A stretch of 64,000 nucleotides of DNA. Origin: an uncultured Monoglobus sp. Its GTDB lineage: Bacteria; Bacillota; Clostridia; Monoglobales; Monoglobaceae. The translations under genes and the position numbers were made by a program. The first letter of the stretch is position 1. Every line of letters begins with the position of its first letter. Positions 11,589 to 21,844 of this stretch are shown here, one piece after another. Below the pieces are notes generated by a model that had not been told where the DNA came from, ran no database searches, and was given only the letters and a program-made list of their open reading frames with translations. The DNA is taken from assembly GCA_947585115.1 (NCBI GenBank), contig CANPWW010000001.1:1-64000 (forward strand), in the 5' to 3' direction.

Positions 11589-11659
11589 AGTGAATAGTGA
11601 TTAGCGAATAGCGAATACGCGGATATAATTTATCCTAAAACGTTAAGGTATCTCCGCGT
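11589..11659 (+). repeat. Period-7 array plus hairpin element (copy 1), at the predicted 5' end of the glnA transcript
   Basis: AGTGAAT AGTGATT AGCGAAT AGCGAAT followed by ACGCGGATATA...TATCTCCGCGT; immediately downstream of TTGACA-17-TAACAT. Confidence 0.75.
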
Positions 11660-11703: not shown

Positions 11704-12975
11704 ATGAGTATGCTGTTTTCTTTGGACGATATAATGGAGTATATCGAGGATAACGATGTTAAGTTCATACGTTTGGTGTTTTTTGACATATTCGGAAATA
11801 TGAAAAATATTTCTATCTTCGCCTCCGAGCTGCCGAGGGCGCTGGAGTACGGCGTGACCTTTGACGCCTCGGAGATCAACGGATTTATGAATGTGGGCGA
11901 GAGCGATCTCATGCTGCGCCCCGACCCGACCACGGCCGAGATACTGCCGTGGCGCCCGCAGCACGCCAGAGTTCTCAGAATATTCTGCGACATATGCTAT
12001 CCCGACGGCAAGATGTTTGAGGGCGATTCGCGAAACATACTCAAAAAGTCGATAGATGATCTGGGAGAGAACGGGCTGTACTGCGAGATAGGGACCGAGT
12101 GCAAGTTCTATTTGTTCAATCTGGACGAGCGCGGCGAGATGACCGACATTCCCCACGACAACGGAACGTACTACGACGTGGCACCGTCCGACAGAGGCGA
12201 GAATATCCGCCGCGAGATCTGCCTGACACTTGAGGAAATGGGGATACAGCCCAGAAGCTCAAAGCACGCGGGCGGCCCCGGCCAGCACCAGATCGTGTAT
12301 AACCACGGCGCGCCCGTTGAGGCGGCTGACCATGTGATGACATTTAAAAATCTGGTTCGGACGATAGCCGATATGAACGGGCTGTACGCCTCGTTTATGC
12401 CCCGTCCCATTCCCGACAAGAGCGGAAACGGAATGCACGTTCATCTGTCTTTATATGAGAGCAAGACCGGAAAGAGCCTTATTGACATAGGCTGCGAGAC
12501 CGGACGCCGCTTCATCGCCGGAATCATGGCGCATATAAATGAGATAAGTCTGTTCCTGTGTCCGACCGTGAATTCATACAGCAGGCTGGGTCAGTTCGAG
12601 GCGCCGAAGTTTGTGACGTGGTCGCACCAGAACCGCCAGCAGCTTATGCGCATTCCCACAAATACGGTGGGAGAGAGCCGTCTTGAGCTGCGCTCGCCCG
12701 ACGGATGCTCCAATCCGTATCTGGTTATCGCGCTGATGATCTACGCGGGTATCGACGGCATCAAAAACGAGATGCGGCTCGCCGATCCCGTTAACGTTAC
12801 CTATAAGGAAGGCATCGACGGGCTCGTGCGTCTGCCGCGGAACCTTGAGGAGGCCGTGCGCTTTGCCGAAAACAGCGAGTTTGTGAAACGGGTGCTGCCG
12901 CGCAACATAACGGCGACATATATCAACGAAAAGCGCCGCGAATACGAAGAATATCTCAGATCCGAGAAAAAATAA
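11704..12975 (+). CDS. glnA: Glutamine synthetase (type I)
   Basis: VKFIRLVFFDIFGNMKNISI, ILPWRPQHARVLRIFCDI, KHAGGPGQHQIVY, SGNGMHVHLSL, NTVGESRLELRSPDGCSNPYL. Confidence 0.93.
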   Translation: MSMLFSLDDIMEYIEDNDVKFIRLVFFDIFGNMKNISIFASELPRALEYGVTFDASEINGFMNVGESDLMLRPDPTTAEILPWRPQHARVLRIFCDICYPDGKMFEGDSRNILKKSIDDLGENGLYCEIGTECKFYLFNLDERGEMTDIPHDNGTYYDVAPSDRGENIRREICLTLEEMGIQPRSSKHAGGPGQHQIVYNHGAPVEAADHVMTFKNLVRTIADMNGLYASFMPRPIPDKSGNGMHVHLSLYESKTGKSLIDIGCETGRRFIAGIMAHINEISLFLCPTVNSYSRLGQFEAPKFVTWSHQNRQQLMRIPTNTVGESRLELRSPDGCSNPYLVIALMIYAGIDGIKNEMRLADPVNVTYKEGIDGLVRLPRNLEEAVRFAENSEFVKRVLPRNITATYINEKRREYEEYLRSEKK

Positions 12976-13029: not shown

Positions 13030-13599
13030 TTGAATGACAGGATTCTGATTGTTTCCGCGTCGGAAAAAAGCTCCGACGCGCTGGCGCGTATTCTGCGAAG
13101 ATACGCGATAAACAACATAGATTTTGCCTCGAGCGGAGCCGAGACAAGACGCGCGGTGCTGCGCGTCGGCTACGCGCTGATTATTATAAACGCGCCGCTC
13201 AAAGACGAGCAGGGAAACGACCTGGCGGCGGACATGATACGCGGCACAAGGTCGTCGGTGATATTGATCGCCAAAAACGATATCGCCGATGTGCTGGCCT
13301 CAAAGGTTGAGGGCGACGGGGTGTTCGTGGTCCCGAAGCCGCTTCAGCAGCGGCAGTTCTGGAGCGCGGTGAGGCTTGGGCTGGCGTTTTCGGCCCGGAT
13401 CGCCGAGATCGACAAAAAGATGGCGAAGCAGGAAAAAAAGTACGAGGAACTGCGGATAATATCAAGAGCCAAGTGCGTGCTGATAGAACGGGAGAGACTG
13501 ACCGAAAAAGAAGCCCACCGGTTTATAGAAAAGCAGGCTATGGACAAACGCGAAAGCCGAGCGAACATAGCCGCGGGAATTTTAAAGCGATATATTTAA
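13030..13599 (+). CDS. ANTAR-domain response regulator (RNA-binding antiterminator)
   Basis: N-terminal receiver-like domain; C-terminal ...RAKCVLIERERLTEKEAHRFIEKQAMDKRESRANIAAGILKRYI is a canonical ANTAR helix set; TTG start; follows glnA. Confidence 0.88.
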   Translation: MNDRILIVSASEKSSDALARILRRYAINNIDFASSGAETRRAVLRVGYALIIINAPLKDEQGNDLAADMIRGTRSSVILIAKNDIADVLASKVEGDGVFVVPKPLQQRQFWSAVRLGLAFSARIAEIDKKMAKQEKKYEELRIISRAKCVLIERERLTEKEAHRFIEKQAMDKRESRANIAAGILKRYI

Positions 13600-13720: not shown

Positions 13721-13789
13721 CGCGGGATAATGCAAATGTTTTTGCCAAATTATCTCCGCGTATTCGCTATTCGCTAATCACTAATCACT
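13721..13789 (-). repeat. Period-7 array plus hairpin element (copy 2, inverted)
   Basis: Reverse complement AGTGATT AGTGATT AGCGAAT AGCGAAT ACGCGGAGATAATTTGGCA...TGCATTATCCCGCG. Confidence 0.75.
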
Positions 13790-13877
13790 ACGTTGGCACC
13801 ACGCGGCACTCAAACCAGTTTATAATAAAATTGTGCTGGGGAAAACGGCGCAAAATTATTATGAAAGGAGCATAATT

Positions 13878-14453
13878 ATGCTTGGTTTTGGAAACAGAAA
13901 ACAGAATCCGGAGGAGCGGGAGTATCCCGAGGCCGCGCGCGGCGGATATCCCGTTCAGCCGCAAGGGTACCCCGCGCAGGCTCAGGCTCAGCCGGGAGCG
14001 GCGCCCATGCAGGGAATGGCGCCCGGAATGATGCCCGGTGCTATGCAGTACGGTATGCCGATGGCTGCTCAGGGTATGCGCGGCGCGGCCGATCCGCGGC
14101 TTGAGGCGTACATAGCCAAAAGAACCGCGGAGATCGACGCGCAGGTCAGGGAGTTCTCGAAAAAGAATCCCGATTTTGACATCAGACGCGAGCTTCAGGA
14201 CCCCAAATTCTGCAACTATCTGTGGGGCAACGGGCTCAGCGTTGAGGACGCCTACTATCTTACCCACCGCGGCGAGGAGCAGGCTGAAAACAACCGCGGA
14301 AAGCCCGAGGAGCCCGAAAAGAGGATCTCGGAGAACGGGACATCAAAGCCCGGCGGCAGCGGCATGGTAAAAAAGAACCCCGAGGACATGAGCGACGAAG
14401 AGGTCGACGACATCATAAGACGCGTCCGCCGCGGCGAGAAGATCTCGTTTTAG
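13878..14453 (+). CDS. Putative phage scaffold/assembly-like protein (hypothetical)
   Basis: MLGFGNRKQNPEEREYPEAARGG...; P/Q/G-rich N-terminus, charged C-terminus; directly upstream of the capsid gene; RBS gaaaggag before ATG 13878. Confidence 0.5.
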   Translation: MLGFGNRKQNPEEREYPEAARGGYPVQPQGYPAQAQAQPGAAPMQGMAPGMMPGAMQYGMPMAAQGMRGAADPRLEAYIAKRTAEIDAQVREFSKKNPDFDIRRELQDPKFCNYLWGNGLSVEDAYYLTHRGEEQAENNRGKPEEPEKRISENGTSKPGGSGMVKKNPEDMSDEEVDDIIRRVRRGEKISF

Positions 14454-14496
14454 TCCGAGGCGCAAAAAACAAAAATTTTAAACGGAGGTATTTTTA

Positions 14497-15729
14497 ATGA
14501 GTATTAATTACAACACCCAGACAACGACCACAAACCGCGTGGGCAACAACGTTACCCCCGAGATGAAGGCGTACTACGACAGGCAGATGATCCGCTTCGC
14601 CTCTCCCAAGCTGGTTCACGCCCAGTTCGGCCAGAGCAAGCCGATCCCCAAGGGCTCCGGCAAGACCATCGAGTTCCGCCGCTTCAGCCCTCTGCCCAAG
14701 GCGATGAAGCCGCTGACCGAGGGCGTTACGCCCAAGGGCAACCAGCTGAACGTGACAACCGTTGAGTCAACGGTCGATCAGTACGGCGACTATGTTACCC
14801 TGTCGGATATGCTGACGCTTTCGGCCATCGACAACGTTATCGTCGAGACCCAGAACGTGCTGGGCGACCAGGCCGGAAGAACGCTCGACACGGTGATCCG
14901 CGAGAAGATCAACGCGGGCACCAACGTGCAGTACGGCGACGGCAAGGCCGACAGAAACGTGCTTGTGGGCGGACAGGCTAGCGGCAACGACTATCTCAGC
15001 GTGGCTGCGGTAAAGAGAGCGGTCGCCACGCTCAAGCGCAACAATGCTCAGCCCATCAAGGACGGCTGCTATGTGGCGATAATCCATCCCGATGTGGCGA
15101 ACGATCTGACAAACGATCCCGAATGGAAGGCCGTTAAGCAGAACGTTGACCCCAAGGACTGGTACAACGGCACGATCGGCAAGATCCACGGCGTTGTGTT
15201 TGTTGAGTCTACCGAGGCGAAAATTTTCAGAGCCGCGCCTCTGCGCAAGATGGAAAATATCATGATCGGCGATCCCGAGAGCCTGACCGTGGCGGCGGTT
15301 TCCGGCAAGGTCATCACGGTGTCCGAGGAGATCGCGACGAGCGACGCGTCCGCTCTGACGGGCAGGGCGATCCAGATAAACGGCTTTGACTACACGATCG
15401 CGTCCGCGTCGGCCGGCGAGCCCGGAGCGGCGAAGATCACGGTGACCGAGACCCTGAGCCCCACTGTGACGGCGGGCTCGATAATCTATCCCGCGGGCGC
15501 CGGCAAGGATGGCAGAGATATTTACTCCACGCTGTTCATCGGCCAGAACGCCTACGGCGTCACAAATATCACGGGCGGCGGTCTTGAGACAATCATCAAG
15601 CAGAAGGGCAGCGCCGGCACGGGCGACCCTCTCGACCAGAGAAGCACCGTTGGCTGGAAGGCCACTCAGACGGCGGAGATCCTTTCTCCCGAGTTCATGG
15701 TGAGAGTCGAGACCACGTGCAGCTACTAA
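14497..15729 (+). CDS. N4-gp56 family phage major capsid protein
   Basis: TNRVGNNVTPEMKAYYDRQMIRFASPKLVHAQFGQSKPIPKGSGKTIEFRRFSPLP...; C-terminal TLFIGQNAYGVTNITGGGLETIIKQKGSAGTGDPLDQRSTVGWKATQTAEILSPEFMVRVETT. Confidence 0.9.
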   Translation: MSINYNTQTTTTNRVGNNVTPEMKAYYDRQMIRFASPKLVHAQFGQSKPIPKGSGKTIEFRRFSPLPKAMKPLTEGVTPKGNQLNVTTVESTVDQYGDYVTLSDMLTLSAIDNVIVETQNVLGDQAGRTLDTVIREKINAGTNVQYGDGKADRNVLVGGQASGNDYLSVAAVKRAVATLKRNNAQPIKDGCYVAIIHPDVANDLTNDPEWKAVKQNVDPKDWYNGTIGKIHGVVFVESTEAKIFRAAPLRKMENIMIGDPESLTVAAVSGKVITVSEEIATSDASALTGRAIQINGFDYTIASASAGEPGAAKITVTETLSPTVTAGSIIYPAGAGKDGRDIYSTLFIGQNAYGVTNITGGGLETIIKQKGSAGTGDPLDQRSTVGWKATQTAEILSPEFMVRVETTCSY

Positions 15730-15746
15730 ATCGGGAGGCGAAACAA

Positions 15747-15995
15747 ATGGCAATGACAAAAAAACAGAAATACGAGGCTGAGCTTGAGGCGTTCTATAAC
15801 GAGCCGGTGCCCCTTATGCTGGTGAAGGACAACTGGAAGAACAAGGACGATCTGACTGTGACGGTCAACGGCACCAACTACCAGATAAAGCGCGGCGAGA
15901 CAGTCACGGTTCCCCGAAAGGTAGCGCTGGCGGTGGAGCGCGCCCACAGGCAGGAGATCGCCGCCGAAAAATACGTGGACAGCCTGAAGGCGTAG
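15747..15995 (+). CDS. Small hypothetical phage structural-cassette protein
   Basis: MAMTKKQKYEAELEAFYNEPVPLMLVKDNWKNKDDLTVTVNGTNYQIKRGETVTVPRKVALAVERA; syntenic with capsid. Confidence 0.7.
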   Translation: MAMTKKQKYEAELEAFYNEPVPLMLVKDNWKNKDDLTVTVNGTNYQIKRGETVTVPRKVALAVERAHRQEIAAEKYVDSLKA

Positions 15996-16008
15996 GGCGG
16001 TGATGTGA

Positions 16009-16785
16009 TTGAAGCTTTTAAAAGCGATAGAGGCGGCTGACGCCCTCAGCCCCAACAGCTTTGAATTTGAGGAGAAGCTGGGCTGGTGCGGCGAGGTGTC
16101 GCTGTCCCTGCGCCGCCACGTCAAAAAATATTATGACATCATCGAGACTGTTGTGACCTGCCGCGAGGAGCTGGAGCTGCCCGAGGATATCTCGATAGAC
16201 AACATAGAGGCGGCCTATCTCGGAGGCAGACCGCTGACAAAGGCGGATCTCAGGAGCCTGCCGTATCTGGCGGGCGCCGACCTCCGCCGCAGGTTCGGCC
16301 TGACCTTCGGCTCGCCCAAGCTGCTCAAGCTCATTTATCTCACAACTCCGGGAGAGGTGCGGGATATCTGCGTCGAGGGCGAGTTCAACATAAGTGAGAG
16401 CGTGATCGAGGGCTGGATGCTGCCCTTTGAGCAGGGCGACGAGATCATCTGCGAGATGCCCGATGATCCGGAGTTTGAGCCCGCGCGCACCTACGTCTAT
16501 GAAAACGACGGCGAAAGGGTGCGTCTGACCGATGATATCTTCATTCCCGAGACGGGCGCCAGGCTTGTGATAAAGCGCGTGATAAACGATGAGACCGAGG
16601 CGGAAGCCCCCTATGACCGCATGTACATCGAATATCTGCTGGCGAAGATCGCTCTGTATCAGCACGACTACGACACATACTCGAGCCACATGATACAGTA
16701 CAACAACATCTACGATGAGTACAAAAGGGACTACAAAACGCGGAACCCGCTGAACGATTTGGCGCGTTTCAAAAATTACTGGTAG
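16009..16785 (+). CDS. Putative head-tail connector/adaptor protein
   Basis: C-terminal MYIEYLLAKIALYQHDYDTYSSHMIQYNNIYDEYKRDYKTRNP helical region resembles tail-tubular-A/connector proteins; cassette position. Confidence 0.5.
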   Translation: MKLLKAIEAADALSPNSFEFEEKLGWCGEVSLSLRRHVKKYYDIIETVVTCREELELPEDISIDNIEAAYLGGRPLTKADLRSLPYLAGADLRRRFGLTFGSPKLLKLIYLTTPGEVRDICVEGEFNISESVIEGWMLPFEQGDEIICEMPDDPEFEPARTYVYENDGERVRLTDDIFIPETGARLVIKRVINDETEAEAPYDRMYIEYLLAKIALYQHDYDTYSSHMIQYNNIYDEYKRDYKTRNPLNDLARFKNYW

Positions 16786-16796
16786 GAGGCGGAAAT

Positions 16797-18488
16797 ATGT
16801 ATATGCCGATTGCGGCTCAAAAGAGCAAAAACAAAAAGGTCGATATCCTGAGCTTTTTCGGATACGACCAAAGAGAAAAGATCGACGACAGGCAGCTGGC
16901 GGAAATGCTCAACATGTCCTCCGACGAGGCGCCCTGTCTGGCGCCTCGAAAGCCCAGACGGCATATCGCCTCGCAGAAGGGCATAACCGCTCTGGCTCTT
17001 CCGGAATATGACCCCGGCGGTCTTGACTCGTTCACGGGCGTCGCGGACGGAAGCTTTTACTACAAGGGCAAACGCGTTGACAATATCGCGCTGAGCAAGG
17101 GCGAAAAGTCGATCGTGGATTTCGGCGGAAACATCTGCATTTTTCCCGACAAGGTGTACTACCGTTATCTGCCCGACCCCGAGGACGGGCAGATCAAAAG
17201 CGAGCTCAGGCCGATGGGCAAAAGCATGACGGTGATAAACGCCTCGTTTTACTCCTACTACGACGAGATAAGCGGCAGATACAGAGCGAGGATCAGCCGG
17301 GACGCCAGCGCGCGGTTCGATCTGTTCTTCAAGCCGGGCGACAGCCTTGTGATCTCCGGCTGCTCCAAGACGCAAAACAACACGCGCGTGATTGACAGCA
17401 AAAAAGACACTGTCTCGGATGAGAGCATCGTCAGCGCGATCGTCAAGGAGGCGGGCATAAGCGATCTGGACCTGCTGCTTTATAACAAAAAGGGCGGCTA
17501 CGCTTTTTTTGAAAACGGACACGAGAGCGCGGAGGTCAAGATCGAGGCCTATATTCCCGATATCGCTTGCGCCTGCGTGCACAACAACCGCCTGTTCGGG
17601 GCCTCGGAAAGCGGCGAGTATATTTTCGCCTCAAAGCTGGGCGACTGCTTTAACTTCTCGTCGTTCCGCGGCCTTGCCGACGACAGCTGGTTCGCCGAGA
17701 TCGGCACGCCCGGCGCCTTTACCGGAATTGTCAGCTACAGGACCTCGGTCGTGGCGTTCAAGCGCGACTATATCCACCATGTTTACGGCGATTCGCCGAC
17801 CAATTTTTCGGTGCCGAAGCAGACGCTGAGCGGCGCTCTTGACGGAAAGAGCGTCGCCGAGGTCGGCGGCGTTCTCTACTACATGGCGGCGGACGGGTTT
17901 TACGAGTATACAGGCGGCGAGCCCGAGAGGATAAGCCGCCCGATCAAGACCTTGTTCGCGTCCTGCAAGAGCGGCACCGACGGCAGGCGTTACTACGCCT
18001 GCGCTGCGGACAAGAGCGGCAAAACGTCGCTGCTGGTGTATGATCCCGATATGGGCGTCTGGCACAGGGAGGACGACACGAAATTCGTTGATTTTGTCCG
18101 CCTGGGCGAGAGGCTGTATGGCGCGACCGAAACCGACATGTACCTGCTGGGAGACGAGGAAGCGGACGAGATAATAAGATGGTGCGTGGTATCCAAAAAA
18201 TTCACGCTTGACGATTTCGATTTCAAGAGCGTGAACGCCGTCTATATCCGTCTGGAATCCGAGTCAGACACCAAGGTCACGGTAAGTTTCGCGGCCGACG
18301 ATGAGGATTTCACCGCCCGGGGTGAGATCAAAGGCGAAAAGGGCTTTTCGGTACATCGTATACCGATAAGGCTCAAGAAATGCGACAGCTTCCGCATCAT
18401 GCTGGAGGGCGAGGGAAAAGCGGTCGTCCACGATATAGAAATGATAACCTACACAGGAGGTAAAACGAATGTCGAAGACATCAGGTAG
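16797..18488 (+). CDS. Putative tail nozzle/stopper structural protein (tail-tubular-B-like)
   Basis: 563 aa with propeller-like segments (CVHNNRLFGASESGEYIFASKLGDCFNFSSF, TSVVAFKRDYIHHVYG, VGGVLYYMAADGFYEYTGGEPERIS); located after the connector-like gene. Confidence 0.55.
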   Translation: MYMPIAAQKSKNKKVDILSFFGYDQREKIDDRQLAEMLNMSSDEAPCLAPRKPRRHIASQKGITALALPEYDPGGLDSFTGVADGSFYYKGKRVDNIALSKGEKSIVDFGGNICIFPDKVYYRYLPDPEDGQIKSELRPMGKSMTVINASFYSYYDEISGRYRARISRDASARFDLFFKPGDSLVISGCSKTQNNTRVIDSKKDTVSDESIVSAIVKEAGISDLDLLLYNKKGGYAFFENGHESAEVKIEAYIPDIACACVHNNRLFGASESGEYIFASKLGDCFNFSSFRGLADDSWFAEIGTPGAFTGIVSYRTSVVAFKRDYIHHVYGDSPTNFSVPKQTLSGALDGKSVAEVGGVLYYMAADGFYEYTGGEPERISRPIKTLFASCKSGTDGRRYYACAADKSGKTSLLVYDPDMGVWHREDDTKFVDFVRLGERLYGATETDMYLLGDEEADEIIRWCVVSKKFTLDDFDFKSVNAVYIRLESESDTKVTVSFAADDEDFTARGEIKGEKGFSVHRIPIRLKKCDSFRIMLEGEGKAVVHDIEMITYTGGKTNVEDIR

Positions 18489-19722
18489 AACTAAAACCAA
18501 TCAGGTCAAGGTCGAGGTCCCGCGGCGTCCCGACGGCATGGTCGGTGTCCGCGCCACTCTGCGCAACATGGGGATCGACAACAGCCTGATAGGCTACAAC
18601 GAGGCGAACAAAACGGTCACATTGGGCGGCAGAGAGCTGATGAGGCCGCAGTATATAAACGAGCAGGCGGGAATTTCTTTCTCGATGCCCGCGGATATAC
18701 AGCGCAGCGTGGCCCAATTTTACTCAAACACGAGCAATCCGGTCGTCAGGGTCTCGGACGCCTACAGCGGCTACGCGGGCAGATACGGCCTGTCCGCCGA
18801 CGCGCTGGGCTACTCCAACGGAGTTGTCACGATCGGCGGAATACCGCTTGACACGCTTTATATAGACGACGACGGCAAGGCATGGGCATTTCAAAACGAT
18901 GTGCGGTCGGCGGTTGACGATTACGTTAACTCGATCGGCGCGGTATCGCCGAACGAGCTGCTTGAGCAGTACAACGATATGTACCTGCCGCGGATCGAAA
19001 GTCTCAGTAATTCGAACATGAACCGAAAGGAATTTTCGTATGATCCCGCGGCCGACCCGGTGTACGGAGCCTACCGCGACCAATATATGCTCAATGCCGG
19101 CCGCGCTGCCGAGGATACGATGGCGGCGTATTCCGCCATGACCGGAGGATATTCAAACTCGGCGGCGGTGACTGCGGCGGGGCTGGCGCAGCAGTATTAT
19201 ATGAGCCAGCTTTCGGGAATGATACCCGAGCTTGCGCGGCAGGCGTATGAGAGGTACTCGGACGGACTGAGCCGCGACGCGGAACTGCTTGATAACATGA
19301 TCGGGCTTTACGACACGGTATGGAGCAACGCGTACGCCGCGAACAACAAGACGGTAAGCAACGCGAATTCCTCATTGTCGAGCAACGCCGAGAGAGACCA
19401 AGACGCTTTCGAGCGCCGCTGGGCGGAGGCGATGAACTCCCAGGACTACAACTGGAACGAGCTTTTGAATAACCAGAAGTACAACTGGACCGAGAGACAG
19501 AACAGTCAGGACTATAGCTGGACCGACGTGCTGAACGGTCAGAAATCGCAGTCTAACATGCTGGGGCTCGAAAACGCCGCTAACGAGAATATTATGCAGG
19601 GGATCTACATGGAATATTATAACGACATGCTCCGCGCGCAGCTGGAGGGCGACCGCCTCAACAACCGCCTGACGCAGGAGCGCATAAACCAATTGATCCT
19701 TCAGAACATGCTCGGCATGTAA
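18469..19722 (+). CDS. Putative internal virion/ejection-like protein with two copper-amine-oxidase-N-like N-terminal repeats
   Basis: Two N-terminal units (VRATLRNMGIDNSLIGYNEANKTVTLGGRELM; YGLSADALGYSNGVVTIGGIPLD) and a long helical part with NSQDYNWNELLNNQKYNWTERQNSQDYSW; overlaps the upstream gene by 20 bp. Confidence 0.5.
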   Translation: MSKTSGRTKTNQVKVEVPRRPDGMVGVRATLRNMGIDNSLIGYNEANKTVTLGGRELMRPQYINEQAGISFSMPADIQRSVAQFYSNTSNPVVRVSDAYSGYAGRYGLSADALGYSNGVVTIGGIPLDTLYIDDDGKAWAFQNDVRSAVDDYVNSIGAVSPNELLEQYNDMYLPRIESLSNSNMNRKEFSYDPAADPVYGAYRDQYMLNAGRAAEDTMAAYSAMTGGYSNSAAVTAAGLAQQYYMSQLSGMIPELARQAYERYSDGLSRDAELLDNMIGLYDTVWSNAYAANNKTVSNANSSLSSNAERDQDAFERRWAEAMNSQDYNWNELLNNQKYNWTERQNSQDYSWTDVLNGQKSQSNMLGLENAANENIMQGIYMEYYNDMLRAQLEGDRLNNRLTQERINQLILQNMLGM

Positions 19723-19735
19723 AGCGCTCATAAAA

Positions 19736-19766
19736 ACGCTTCCGAATCATAATTCGGAGGCGTTTT
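19736..19766 (+). terminator. Intrinsic terminator ending the phage-like cassette
   Basis: ACGCTTCCGAAT-cata-ATTCGGAGGCGTTTTTT. Confidence 0.85.
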
Positions 19767-19779
19767 TTGAATTAAATTA

Positions 19780-19808
19780 TTGACACTTTTCGAGGACGCT
19801 GTTATAAT
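19780..19808 (+). promoter_or_regulatory. Strong sigma-A promoter for the AgrA/AgrC-like pair
   Basis: TTGACA-17 bp-TATAAT. Confidence 0.85.
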
Positions 19809-19845: not shown

Positions 19846-20583
19846 GTGAGACATGTGCGTGTTGCGATTTGTGACGACGAGAATGTTTGGGTGAACAGGA
19901 TAGAGGAACATCTGATCAGATTCAAGAAGTCTCACAAGGATATCGAATGGGAGGTATTCTATTCGGGCGAGCAGCTTGTTGAGCATTATTCCCGCGGGGA
20001 AAGACTTTTTGATATTCTGATACTTGATATCGAGCTTAAAGAGCTGTCGGGTATCGAGACCGCTTTAAAGATACGCGAGGCGGACAAAAAAGCCGCCATT
20101 TTTTTCATGACATCTCACACGAAATATGTTTATGACTGTTTTAAGCCCGCGCCCGCGAATTTTTGGGTCAAGCCTGTCGAGTATGAAGTTTTGCGCGATG
20201 ATTTTGAGGAAGTTATCCGAAAGTCGGCCGACATGAAAAAAGAGCTGATTTTCAAAAGCCGCGGCGAGTACAAAAAGATCCCGCGCGGAAGCGTGAATTA
20301 TATCACAAGCAGCGCGAAAAAGGTGCTGATCCATACCGAAGGCGGGGATTTTGAAATATACGGCACGCTGAAGGGCATTTCTGAGCGGCTCGGGCCCCGC
20401 GGCTTTTCGTCTCCTCATAAGTCATACTTTGTTAACCTTGACAAGGTGGAGACCTTTAACACAAAAGAAGTGATATTGAGCGGAGGGGAGCATATACCCG
20501 TCAGCAAGTCAAGGCGGCAGCAGTTCAAAAAGGATTTTCTTGAGTATGTGAGCGGAGATAATTATGATATATACGGCGATTGA
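19846..20583 (+). CDS. LytTR-family (AgrA-like) response regulator
   Basis: VRVAICDDENVWVNRIEEHL...LDIELKELSGIETALKIREADKKAAIFFMTSHTKYVYDCF; C-terminal LytTR (NYITSSAKKVLIHTEGGDFEIYGTLKGISERL...FSSPHKSYFVNLDKV). GTG start. Confidence 0.9.
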   Translation: MRHVRVAICDDENVWVNRIEEHLIRFKKSHKDIEWEVFYSGEQLVEHYSRGERLFDILILDIELKELSGIETALKIREADKKAAIFFMTSHTKYVYDCFKPAPANFWVKPVEYEVLRDDFEEVIRKSADMKKELIFKSRGEYKKIPRGSVNYITSSAKKVLIHTEGGDFEIYGTLKGISERLGPRGFSSPHKSYFVNLDKVETFNTKEVILSGGEHIPVSKSRRQQFKKDFLEYVSGDNYDIYGD

Positions 20584-21844
20584 CCTGATCACATTGGTGT
20601 TTGAGATAATAGTTACATATATGTTTTTTGACGCGGTGCTTGATTCGCGCAGGGGCGGCGTTTTGGCGCGCGCGGCGGTCGGCGCGGCATACTTCGTCCT
20701 GTCCTGGATATATAATGTTTATATCGAGTCGTTTGTTTTGTCGTTTGTCATTATGCTGCTTTTGACGTTTATGTGCACCGCGGTGTACAAAGACAGCGCG
20801 CTGAAAAAATTATTGATGTCGCTGCTTTATATGCTCTTTATGGCGGTCTCCAATTTTGTTTTTATTTTGGCGGGACTGGCGTTCGGGATCCCAATTGATG
20901 AAATGTTAAGAGAAAAAAGCATGTACAATATCATGGGCCTGGTTATTGTTATGATCCTGATGACTATTATGGTTAAAGCCGCGGGACTGTTTTTTAACAG
21001 AAACCGCGCGAAAGTCAGCGTGAGTTATTGGATATTGCTTCTCTCTATCCCTGTTGTAAATATTATTTTTATTCTGCATTACACCCGATATCTCTACAGC
21101 CTCAACGCGGAGTTTTCGTATTCTCTTGTTATACTGACGGTCTCAGCGATGTATTCGACCCTGCTTGTGTTTTATCTTTTCGATAAGCTGACGGCGCTGC
21201 TCTCGGAGCGCGACGCGCTGAGCGAGCAGGTGGGCGGACAGAAGCGTCGGAACGTTGAAATTGACAAAAAAGAGGAACATATTATGTCGGTCAGACATGA
21301 TATAATAAACCATATGCGGGTCATTCAATCGCTGATACGGCGCGGCGAGACGGAAGCGGCGGATCGGTACATAGACGAGCTGGATCTTGACTTCGATGGC
21401 GCCGACGGGCTGATCGACACCGGAAATACGGCGATAGATATTTTAGTCAGCGGAAAAAAGAGCGCCGCGCGGCGGCTCGGTATAGATTTTCGCGAGAAAA
21501 TAATCATTCCCGAAAATCTGAAAATAAGCAATGTTGACGCGGTGATACTTCTGGGCAACCTGCTGGACAACGCCGTTGAGGGCTGCGAAAGAGCCGCCGC
21601 GGCGGAAAAGCGGATAAAGCTGACGCTGAAATACAGAAACAGCTATCTGCTCTGCGTCGTTGAAAACACGTCGGATCCGGTCAAAGTCGGGCGCGGCTTT
21701 TTAAAAACGTCAAAGGCGGACGCGGACTCTCACGGTATCGGCCTGAGAAATATAAAGCGAATCGTGAACAAATACAACGGAGAGTCGGTCCAAAAATATA
21801 AAAACGGAGTTTTTATATCCGAAATTATGATTTTTATTGATTAA
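20564..21844 (+). CDS. Sensor histidine kinase, AgrC-like (GHKL ATPase)
   Basis: Multiple N-terminal TM helices; SVRHDIINHMRVIQSLIRRGE, ILLGNLLDNAVEGCERA, SHGIGLRNIKRIVNKYNGE. Confidence 0.9.
   Translation: MIYTAIDLITLVFEIIVTYMFFDAVLDSRRGGVLARAAVGAAYFVLSWIYNVYIESFVLSFVIMLLLTFMCTAVYKDSALKKLLMSLLYMLFMAVSNFVFILAGLAFGIPIDEMLREKSMYNIMGLVIVMILMTIMVKAAGLFFNRNRAKVSVSYWILLLSIPVVNIIFILHYTRYLYSLNAEFSYSLVILTVSAMYSTLLVFYLFDKLTALLSERDALSEQVGGQKRRNVEIDKKEEHIMSVRHDIINHMRVIQSLIRRGETEAADRYIDELDLDFDGADGLIDTGNTAIDILVSGKKSAARRLGIDFREKIIIPENLKISNVDAVILLGNLLDNAVEGCERAAAAEKRIKLTLKYRNSYLLCVVENTSDPVKVGRGFLKTSKADADSHGIGLRNIKRIVNKYNGESVQKYKNGVFISEIMIFID

Follow-up and report, generated by a model that had tools for sequence, protein, structure and literature searches.

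Within the 64,000-nucleotide window that was analysed (positions 1 to 64,000, forward strand, of contig CANPWW010000001.1 of a Monoglobus MAG, family Monoglobaceae, GCA_947585115.1), six intact, co-directional genes were located between host genes for glnA and an ANTAR-type regulator on the left and a LytTR/histidine kinase pair on the right (Table 1). No terminase, portal or lysis gene was present beside this cassette, and none of the six predicted proteins had a terminase or portal family match. The identification of the capsid gene was firm. That these are real genes rather than chance ORFs was indicated by collinearity of the whole cassette in 10 other members of the genus. Thus, the arrangement described in the earlier note, i.e., an intact podovirus-like head and neck cassette without packaging or lysis genes, was confirmed; the term "orphan", which was also used there, needs correction since a portal gene and a TerL gene were found elsewhere in the same genome.

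Table 1. Features of the cassette and its flanks (window coordinates).
Position	Strand	Feature	Supporting data
11704..12975	+	glnA, host gene flanking on the left	Syntenic in 4 sister genomes
13030..13599	+	ANTAR-type regulator, host gene on the left	Syntenic in 4 sister genomes
13793..13828	+	Composite late-promoter motif TTGGCAC-N5-GGCACT-N9-TTATAATAA (TGGCAC direct repeat plus -10 box), 85 bp before the scaffold start	Same motif precedes the portal locus (contig C32:11436), fibre locus (C113:2850), lysis locus (C13) and a wHTH gene (C33:4962) of the source genome
13878..14453	+	g1, scaffold-like protein (191 aa)	phrog_13908 8.7e-11 (searched from the upstream GTG at 13833); position before MCP as in related phages; conserved in the genus
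14497..15729	+	g2, major capsid protein (MCP), N4-gp56 family (410 aa)	TIGR04387 8e-82; phrog_1357 7.9e-82; 86-99% identical in 10 of 11 other genus members, one copy each
15717..15995	+	g3, small protein (92 aa) after MCP, function unknown	phrog_15239 1.1e-18; conserved in GTA-like and phage loci
16009..16785	+	g4, head-to-tail adaptor (258 aa) with an inserted beta domain	AF2 model pLDDT 84.7; best viral fold match "Head to tail adaptor" 2.8e-6; PDB matches weak, about 1e-2
16797..18488	+	g5, podovirus tail nozzle (563 aa)	AF2 model pLDDT 87.7; best 29 PDB matches are phage tail proteins, mostly podovirus nozzles (P22 gp10 8.4e-15, T7 gp12); phrog_511 7.2e-43
18469..19722	+	g6 (417 aa), neck/tail-proximal protein	41-48% identity over 90-120 aa to phage genes in loci L079 and L082; no family match
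19741..19758	.	Hairpin followed by T-run, terminator-like, ends the cassette	Number of terminators found by the scan of the region not above chance
19846..21844	+	LytTR response regulator and histidine kinase, host genes	Own perfect sigma-70 promoter at 19780-19808

The earlier note had proposed structure prediction for the unassigned proteins and had named a portal or terminase domain among them as evidence against its reading. No such domain was found, either by family scans or from the modelled folds of g4 and g5, which instead agreed with the "connector-like" and "nozzle-like" assignments made in the note. The assignment of g6 as "internal-virion-like" was not confirmed. This protein shares a domain of approximately 100 aa with a gene that lies before the giant tape-measure-like gene of related phages. 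These phages, i.e., Page/Pony-like Bacillus megaterium podoviruses and gut podoviruses of IMG/VR (e.g., loci L079 and L082), carry homologous TerL, portal, scaffold, MCP and g3-g6 genes in a contiguous genome in the order TerS-TerL-portal-scaffold-MCP-g3-g4-g5-g6-tape measure, with a full-length TerS and a giant tape-measure-like protein.

The capsid gene was present as a single copy in 10 of 11 other genus members and was found across much of the family. Small-genome genera g2, g4 and g9 lacked this gene, and the members of these genera that were tested for the portal lacked it as well. Conservation at the same locus, dN/dS and a search of the rest of the genome for a portal and terminase had each been suggested beforehand as checks. 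Values of dN/dS ranged from 0.035 to 0.23 at the same dS as flanking host genes. One portal and one strong TerL locus were found in every genus member, including the source genome, in which they lie on a contig (C32) other than that of the cassette; in a one-contig genus member (G008) the two loci are about 270 kb apart. Distance matrices for the capsid protein and TerL agreed with each other (r=0.963, 325 pairs) and with that of the host gene ruvX (0.925 and 0.980, respectively, 55 pairs each). Of the outcomes that the note had listed as contrary to its reading, neither a complete prophage at this site in relatives nor pseudogenes in sister species were seen. Recent deletion of a prophage at this site was rejected because sister species have the same cassette between the same flanks.

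In addition to the portal and TerL, the locus on C32 encodes a fibre-like protein, an S24-type repressor on the opposite strand and, before TerL, a sigma-like gene and a short TerS candidate. The cleavage site A-G and the catalytic Ser/Lys of the S24 repressor were invariant in 8 orthologues, and the Walker and nuclease residues of TerL were present. No sigma or TF family match was found in Pfam for the 144-aa gene, which gave only a weak PHROG match to "transcriptional regulator" (2.1e-5). The TerS candidate, identified by position and size, is an ORF of 59-106 aa directly before TerL in most genera as opposed to 154-162 aa with an HTH-like N-terminus in related phages, which is the pattern described for GTA TerS (PMC6854486). 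This ORF had no family match, and profile comparison with phage TerS gave nothing, so that the question of whether it is a small terminase lacking a sequence-specific DNA-binding domain was left undecided.

A fibre locus (C113) and a holin-amidase locus (C13) were also found in the source genome, the fibre gene of the former being cut by a contig end. Contig C83, which was hit by the fibre query, was considered as the continuation of this fibre locus but was rejected, as it is a separate, myophage-like prophage fragment. Thus, a complete set of genes for a DNA-filled particle, comprising capsid, portal, TerL, neck/tail, fibre and lysis, occurs within the one genome. However, no homologue of the giant tape-measure/internal virion protein of related phages was found in six genomes, a search made without a positive control, and DNA ejection is therefore uncertain.

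One composite motif preceded the late genes at all four loci. Searches with the motif gave 25 and 29 matches in 9 and 12 genus genomes, compared with 3 and 1 for reversed-pattern controls. A PWM trained on the capsid and portal loci alone also marked the lysis locus, the fibre loci and a wHTH gene, the latter belonging to two different protein families in different species. The PWM was run only on fetched stretches, many of which had been fetched because of the motif; the lysis loci, which were fetched by an endolysin search, and the fibre locus of genus member G006 were not, and these constitute the independent tests. In another genome (G017), both the capsid and portal loci shared the same derived variant of the motif.

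The interpretation offered in the earlier note was partly supported by these results. Domestication was supported by conserved single-copy genes, purifying selection and a host-congruent tree. Of the three alternatives that were offered, a gene transfer agent (GTA) with split loci was strongly favoured whereas the other two were disfavoured. A nanocompartment-like empty capsid used for storage, suggested by the absence of packaging genes at this site, is very unlikely, since a portal, packaging motor and lysis genes are kept in the same genomes, the portal and capsid loci share the promoter motif, and an adaptor and nozzle would be useless in a closed shell; the element thus does not fit the description of an encapsulin, i.e., a closed HK97-fold shell without portal or packaging motor. 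A satellite or helper-dependent element that supplies capsid parts to, or takes parts from, a resident phage is also very unlikely. Although the prophage fragment on C83 shows that a separate phage element exists in this genome, the present element has its own capsid, portal, TerL, fibre, holin and endolysin, is inherited with the chromosome and is fixed in the genus (10 of 11 other members), and no helper-dependent, integration or replication module was seen beside its loci in the ORF listings.

The genes also did not form a prophage in the sense of a contiguous genome able to excise and replicate. A slowly decaying prophage that was broken up by rearrangement and survives by chance could be invoked from the dispersal of the pieces, which sit in different flanks in different genera, and from the absence of the capsid gene in the small-genome genera. 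This is considered very unlikely in view of the intact ORFs throughout, the low dN/dS, the congruent trees of two unlinked loci, the shared and co-varying promoter motif and the preserved gene order within each module.

The best explanation, held with reasonable though not full confidence, is that the cassette is the head-neck module of a split-locus GTA of podovirus origin that is inherited vertically in the family Monoglobaceae. The gene content of the four loci, the motif they have in common before the late genes and the purifying selection on these genes follow directly from the sequences, whereas the mode of action is inferred. In this view, DNA damage or another signal would cause the S24 repressor to cleave itself, thereby freeing a conserved sigma-70 promoter for the sigma-like/TerS/TerL operon. 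The sigma-like protein, possibly with a replication-initiator-derived winged-helix protein, would then activate the TGGCAC-repeat promoters. Podovirus-like particles would assemble, TerL with a TerS that has no recognisable helix-turn-helix would pack chromosomal DNA without preference, and holin and amidase would lyse the cell and release the particles. Neither particles nor packaged DNA nor transfer has been seen, and random packaging and delivery have not been shown. Whether the element lacks functions for self-replication and integration, and is unable to package its whole gene set, was likewise not settled: the genes are spread over separate loci and no integrase appeared in the ORF listings of the fetched loci, but integrase was not searched for genome-wide.

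The main rival, although considerably less likely, is a domesticated particle that packs host DNA but does not deliver it, acting instead as a bacteriocin-like killer or in some other way, as does PBSX of Bacillus subtilis. PBSX is a contiguous element. It is described as a domesticated GTA-like element that acts as a tailocin and does not inject its DNA (PMC12946183). In agreement with this possibility, no tape-measure/internal virion protein homologue was found, and fibre genes varied strongly between species while the rest was conserved, as expected for target-specific killing. However, fibre variability fits recipient choice as well, a short podovirus neck is not a known tailocin form, and nothing else points to killing. 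The same question is left open by the authors who described FpGTA of Faecalibacterium (PMC12946183).

Similarities were also noted with RcGTA and the Caulobacter GTA (PMC9638019, PMC9632790, PMC6854486), in which a main cluster plus scattered auxiliary loci (tail fibre, head spike, lysis) are under one activator with replication-initiator-like (DnaA domain IV) and sigma-like parts, the RogA repressor is of HTH + S24-like build and TerS is without HTH. These GTAs belong to Alphaproteobacteria and have long-tailed particles and an unrelated capsid lineage. RogA lacks the catalytic residues whereas the repressor described here keeps them, and the regulators described here are separate phage-type proteins, the role of which is inferred. 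A more far-reaching possibility, not excluded by the evidence but tentative, is that of a family-wide "exploded" GTA, the parts of which sit at four or five chromosomal sites and are re-joined only by one dedicated promoter code (TGGCAC direct repeat plus -10) under an SOS-type autocleaving repressor, a sigma-like factor and a winged-helix protein derived from a phage replication initiator. This would be an independent invention of the RogA-GafYZ logic of alphaproteobacterial GTAs.

Few GTAs are known outside Alphaproteobacteria, and the first podovirus-like one, FpGTA, was reported in 2026 (Borodovich et al., Nat Commun, PMC12946183). A literature search for Monoglobus together with GTA found nothing, and searches for a Monoglobus genome paper found nothing useful. 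If the present interpretation is right, GTAs are not a Faecalibacterium oddity in the gut, since much of another family of anaerobes, including cultured species, carries one. The scattered loci would explain why prophage finders miss them, and the shared promoter motif gives a way to find the missing parts of split GTAs by sequence and makes testable the question of how a phage genome that has been broken into pieces keeps acting as one machine.

FpGTA, which provides the closest precedent, is also from gut Clostridia, is podovirus-like and near-universal in its genus, and packs 8.4-8.9 kb host DNA. TerS, TerL, portal, scaffold and capsid genes are kept, the small TerS is without an evident DNA-binding domain, and a separate operon carries fibre/RBP, holin and endolysin genes. 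The packaging and capsid genes of FpGTA form one 10.5 kb operon, accompanied by one 5.5 kb operon; in Monoglobus, the capsid-neck and portal-TerL genes are separate loci, and fibre and lysis genes are often separate again, so that the set is spread over at least four loci. Monoglobaceae was not among the taxa named in that report, and no shared promoter motif was mentioned in the sections consulted. Homology with the proteins of FpGTA operons I and II was not examined. Compact clusters with homologous TerL, portal and MCP genes were found in a further family, designated f16.

The six co-directional ORFs described in the earlier note are real and intact, and no terminase, portal or lysis gene lies beside them; the observation on which that note was based was, in this respect, confirmed. 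The second gene of the cassette (g2) encodes an N4-gp56 major capsid protein, as indicated by matches to TIGR04387 (8e-82) and to phrog_1357 (7.9e-82). Structure prediction, which had been proposed beforehand for the unassigned proteins, gave informative folds for two of them. The model of g5, built with an alignment of 20 sequences (pLDDT 87.7), matched podovirus tail nozzles, including P22 gp10 at 8.4e-15, T7 gp12 and Sf6, and the best 29 PDB matches were phage tail proteins. The best viral fold match of the g4 model (pLDDT 84.7) was a 'Head to tail adaptor' (2.8e-6), although matches of this model to PDB entries were weak. The products of g1 (phrog_13908) and g3 (phrog_15239) fall in phage families of unknown function but hold the scaffold and post-capsid positions, respectively, in related phages, while that of g6 shares about 100 residues with phage genes that lie before the giant tape-measure-like gene. 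The nearest named records, with 99-95% capsid identity, were 'uncultured Monoglobus sp.' MAGs of a 'Lapin' (rabbit) series. Downstream of the cassette, a perfect sigma-70 promoter (TTGACA-17-TATAAT) was noted in front of the LytTR/kinase pair, so the downstream genes have their own start.

A search of the rest of the genome for portal and terminase genes, which the earlier note had named as a test, showed that the cassette is not an orphan. The interpretation placed on the cassette in that note was partly supported. Profiles of TerL and portal, made from related phages and from genomes in which these genes sit beside the capsid gene, identified one strong TerL and one portal at one place in every member of the genus, now and then with an additional unrelated TerL. 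In the present genome both were found on contig C32, and in the one-contig genus member G008 (2,757,678 bp) the portal/TerL locus and the capsid gene were about 270 kb apart. The layout of this second locus (locus 2, as opposed to the capsid cassette, or locus 1) was read out in the sequence stretch L150, where it holds a fibre-like gene, the portal (PF16510, 3e-28), on the opposite strand an HTH + Peptidase_S24 repressor (PF00717, 8.8e-21), then genes for a 78-aa CxxC protein, a 144-aa sigma-like protein (phrog_36, 2.1e-5), a 78-aa TerS candidate and TerL (phrog_979, 9.5e-51), followed by the host gene ruvX. The same layout holds across genera of the family. On contig C27 of another genome (G027; stretches L158 and L046), the portal/TerL and capsid loci lie about 11 kb apart with host genes between them, a possible intermediate stage of the break-up.

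Positions of features in the source genome and in related genomes
Feature	Sequence	Position
TerL	source genome, contig C32	16024-17382
Portal	source genome, contig C32	12432-14018
Portal/TerL locus	G008	1,634,110-1,639,110
Capsid gene	G008	1,908,802
Motif match leading to the tail-fibre locus	source genome, contig C113	2850
Motif match leading to the winged-helix protein gene	source genome, contig C33	4962
Winged-helix protein gene	L195 (source genome, contig C33)	5031-5546
Winged-helix protein gene	L206	6956-7897
Winged-helix protein gene	L208	6488-7135
Motif match without a clear gene behind it	L201	10022
Motif match without a clear gene behind it	L202	3216
Motif match without a clear gene behind it	L203	7279
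Motif match without a clear gene behind it	L204	1196
Short dispersed repeats	window	13767-13790; also 11604-11611, 13663 and 28346 on -
Sigma-70 promoter before the LytTR/kinase pair	window	19780-19808

Vertical inheritance and selection were evident from comparisons within the family, which included the conservation and dN/dS analyses called for in advance. The capsid gene was single-copy in 10 of 11 other genus members, and the whole six-gene order was kept in all ten and in several other genera. The one exception, G005, is an 88%-complete assembly that still has portal and TerL, and as most of the genomes are MAGs, a missing gene can be an assembly gap. Pairwise distances of the unlinked capsid and TerL genes correlated at r=0.963 (325 pairs), and each correlated with those of ruvX (0.925 for capsid and 0.980 for TerL, 55 pairs each), with the same main clades. 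Between close species, dN/dS, calculated as a simple Nei-Gojobori estimate, was 0.035-0.23 for the cassette and 0.023-0.145 for locus 2, at dS values like those of the flanking host genes. Flanks differed between subclades and between genera, so modules have moved within genomes while being inherited with them. No capsid match was found in genera with small genomes (designated g2, g4 and g9), and the members of these that were tested had no portal.

Comparison of the promoters of loci 1 and 2 gave one composite motif, TTGGCAY-N5-GGCACT-N9-TTAYAATWA. Searched in whole genus genomes with up to 3 mismatches, two versions of this pattern gave 25 and 29 matches in 9 and 12 genomes, respectively, whereas the reversed-pattern controls gave 3 and 1. 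New matches led to a tail-fibre locus, present in the source genome, where the fibre gene runs off the contig, and in G005, G007, G009 and G011, and to a gene for a winged-helix protein like the N-terminus of phage replication initiators (phrog_186, 7.3e-13, in the source genome; a different family, PF14297, in the genus members G008 and G001). Single genes for such winged-helix proteins, of two different families in different species, sit behind the motif next to housekeeping genes. In G007 the fibre gene is followed by holin and amidase genes, while in the source genome and several others the holin-amidase pair stands alone beside housekeeping genes. This pair was found by protein search, and a PWM trained only on loci 1 and 2 marked it as well (14.8 bits at -51 in the source genome), with only 34 places above 10 bits in 1.49 million. 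The PWM scan covered fetched stretches only, many of them chosen by the motif, and the independent tests are therefore the lysis loci and the fibre locus of G006. In G017 both loci carried the same derived variant of the motif, whereas some loci in other genera (G018) showed no recognisable motif. Other matches had no clear gene behind them, although the site in L201 and L202 is the same place in two species. Short dispersed repeats (CTATTCGCTA, CTAATCACTA) end just before the motif in the window and in several sister promoters, and a repeat family may have inserted at these promoters.

A different arrangement was seen before the sigma-like/TerS/TerL operon. The promoter of this operon lacks the motif and is instead TTGACA-N17-TATAAT, strongly kept in the genus, with an inverted repeat in its spacer. 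The repressor keeps its A-G cleavage site and catalytic Ser and Lys in 8 orthologues. In the most likely mode of operation, cleavage of the repressor, for example in the SOS response, would free the early operon; the sigma-like protein, perhaps with the winged-helix protein, would then switch on the TGGCAC promoters of locus 1, portal, fibre and lysis; and particles would form, be packed by TerL and be released by holin and amidase. Of this scheme, the identities of the genes, selection, co-inheritance and the shared motif were established by the present analysis, whereas the regulatory steps, random packaging and transfer are inferences. The short TerS candidate without recognisable HTH fits the GTA type (PMC6854486), but its homology to phage TerS could not be shown. 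No tape-measure homologue was found in a search run without a positive control. Regulation of this kind recalls that of alphaproteobacterial GTAs, in which RogA (HTH + S24-like, without catalytic residues) represses GafYZ, whose parts resemble DnaA and sigma factors and act on scattered loci (PMC9632790, PMC9638019).

A podovirus-like GTA of Faecalibacterium, FpGTA, which is encoded in two operons and forms 40-nm particles with 8.4-8.9 kb DNA, was described by Borodovich et al. 2026 (PMC12946183), who also saw GTA-like packaging in Ruminococcus callidus, Gemmiger and CAG-115, with no locus for these noted in the text consulted. The present system is probably the same kind of thing, but broken into more pieces; common origin with FpGTA was not examined. 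An unrelated myophage-like prophage fragment with baseplate and tail genes was also present in the source genome (contig C83, stretch L259). In the class sample, five genomes of one genus (designated g104, family f16; stretches L376-L380 and L391) had compact clusters of about 10 kb with homologous TerL, portal, capsid and nozzle in a different gene order in each, some beside holin and amidase, and with a 74-aa ORF before TerL in L376. These clusters look like a second GTA lineage, possibly the FpGTA group.
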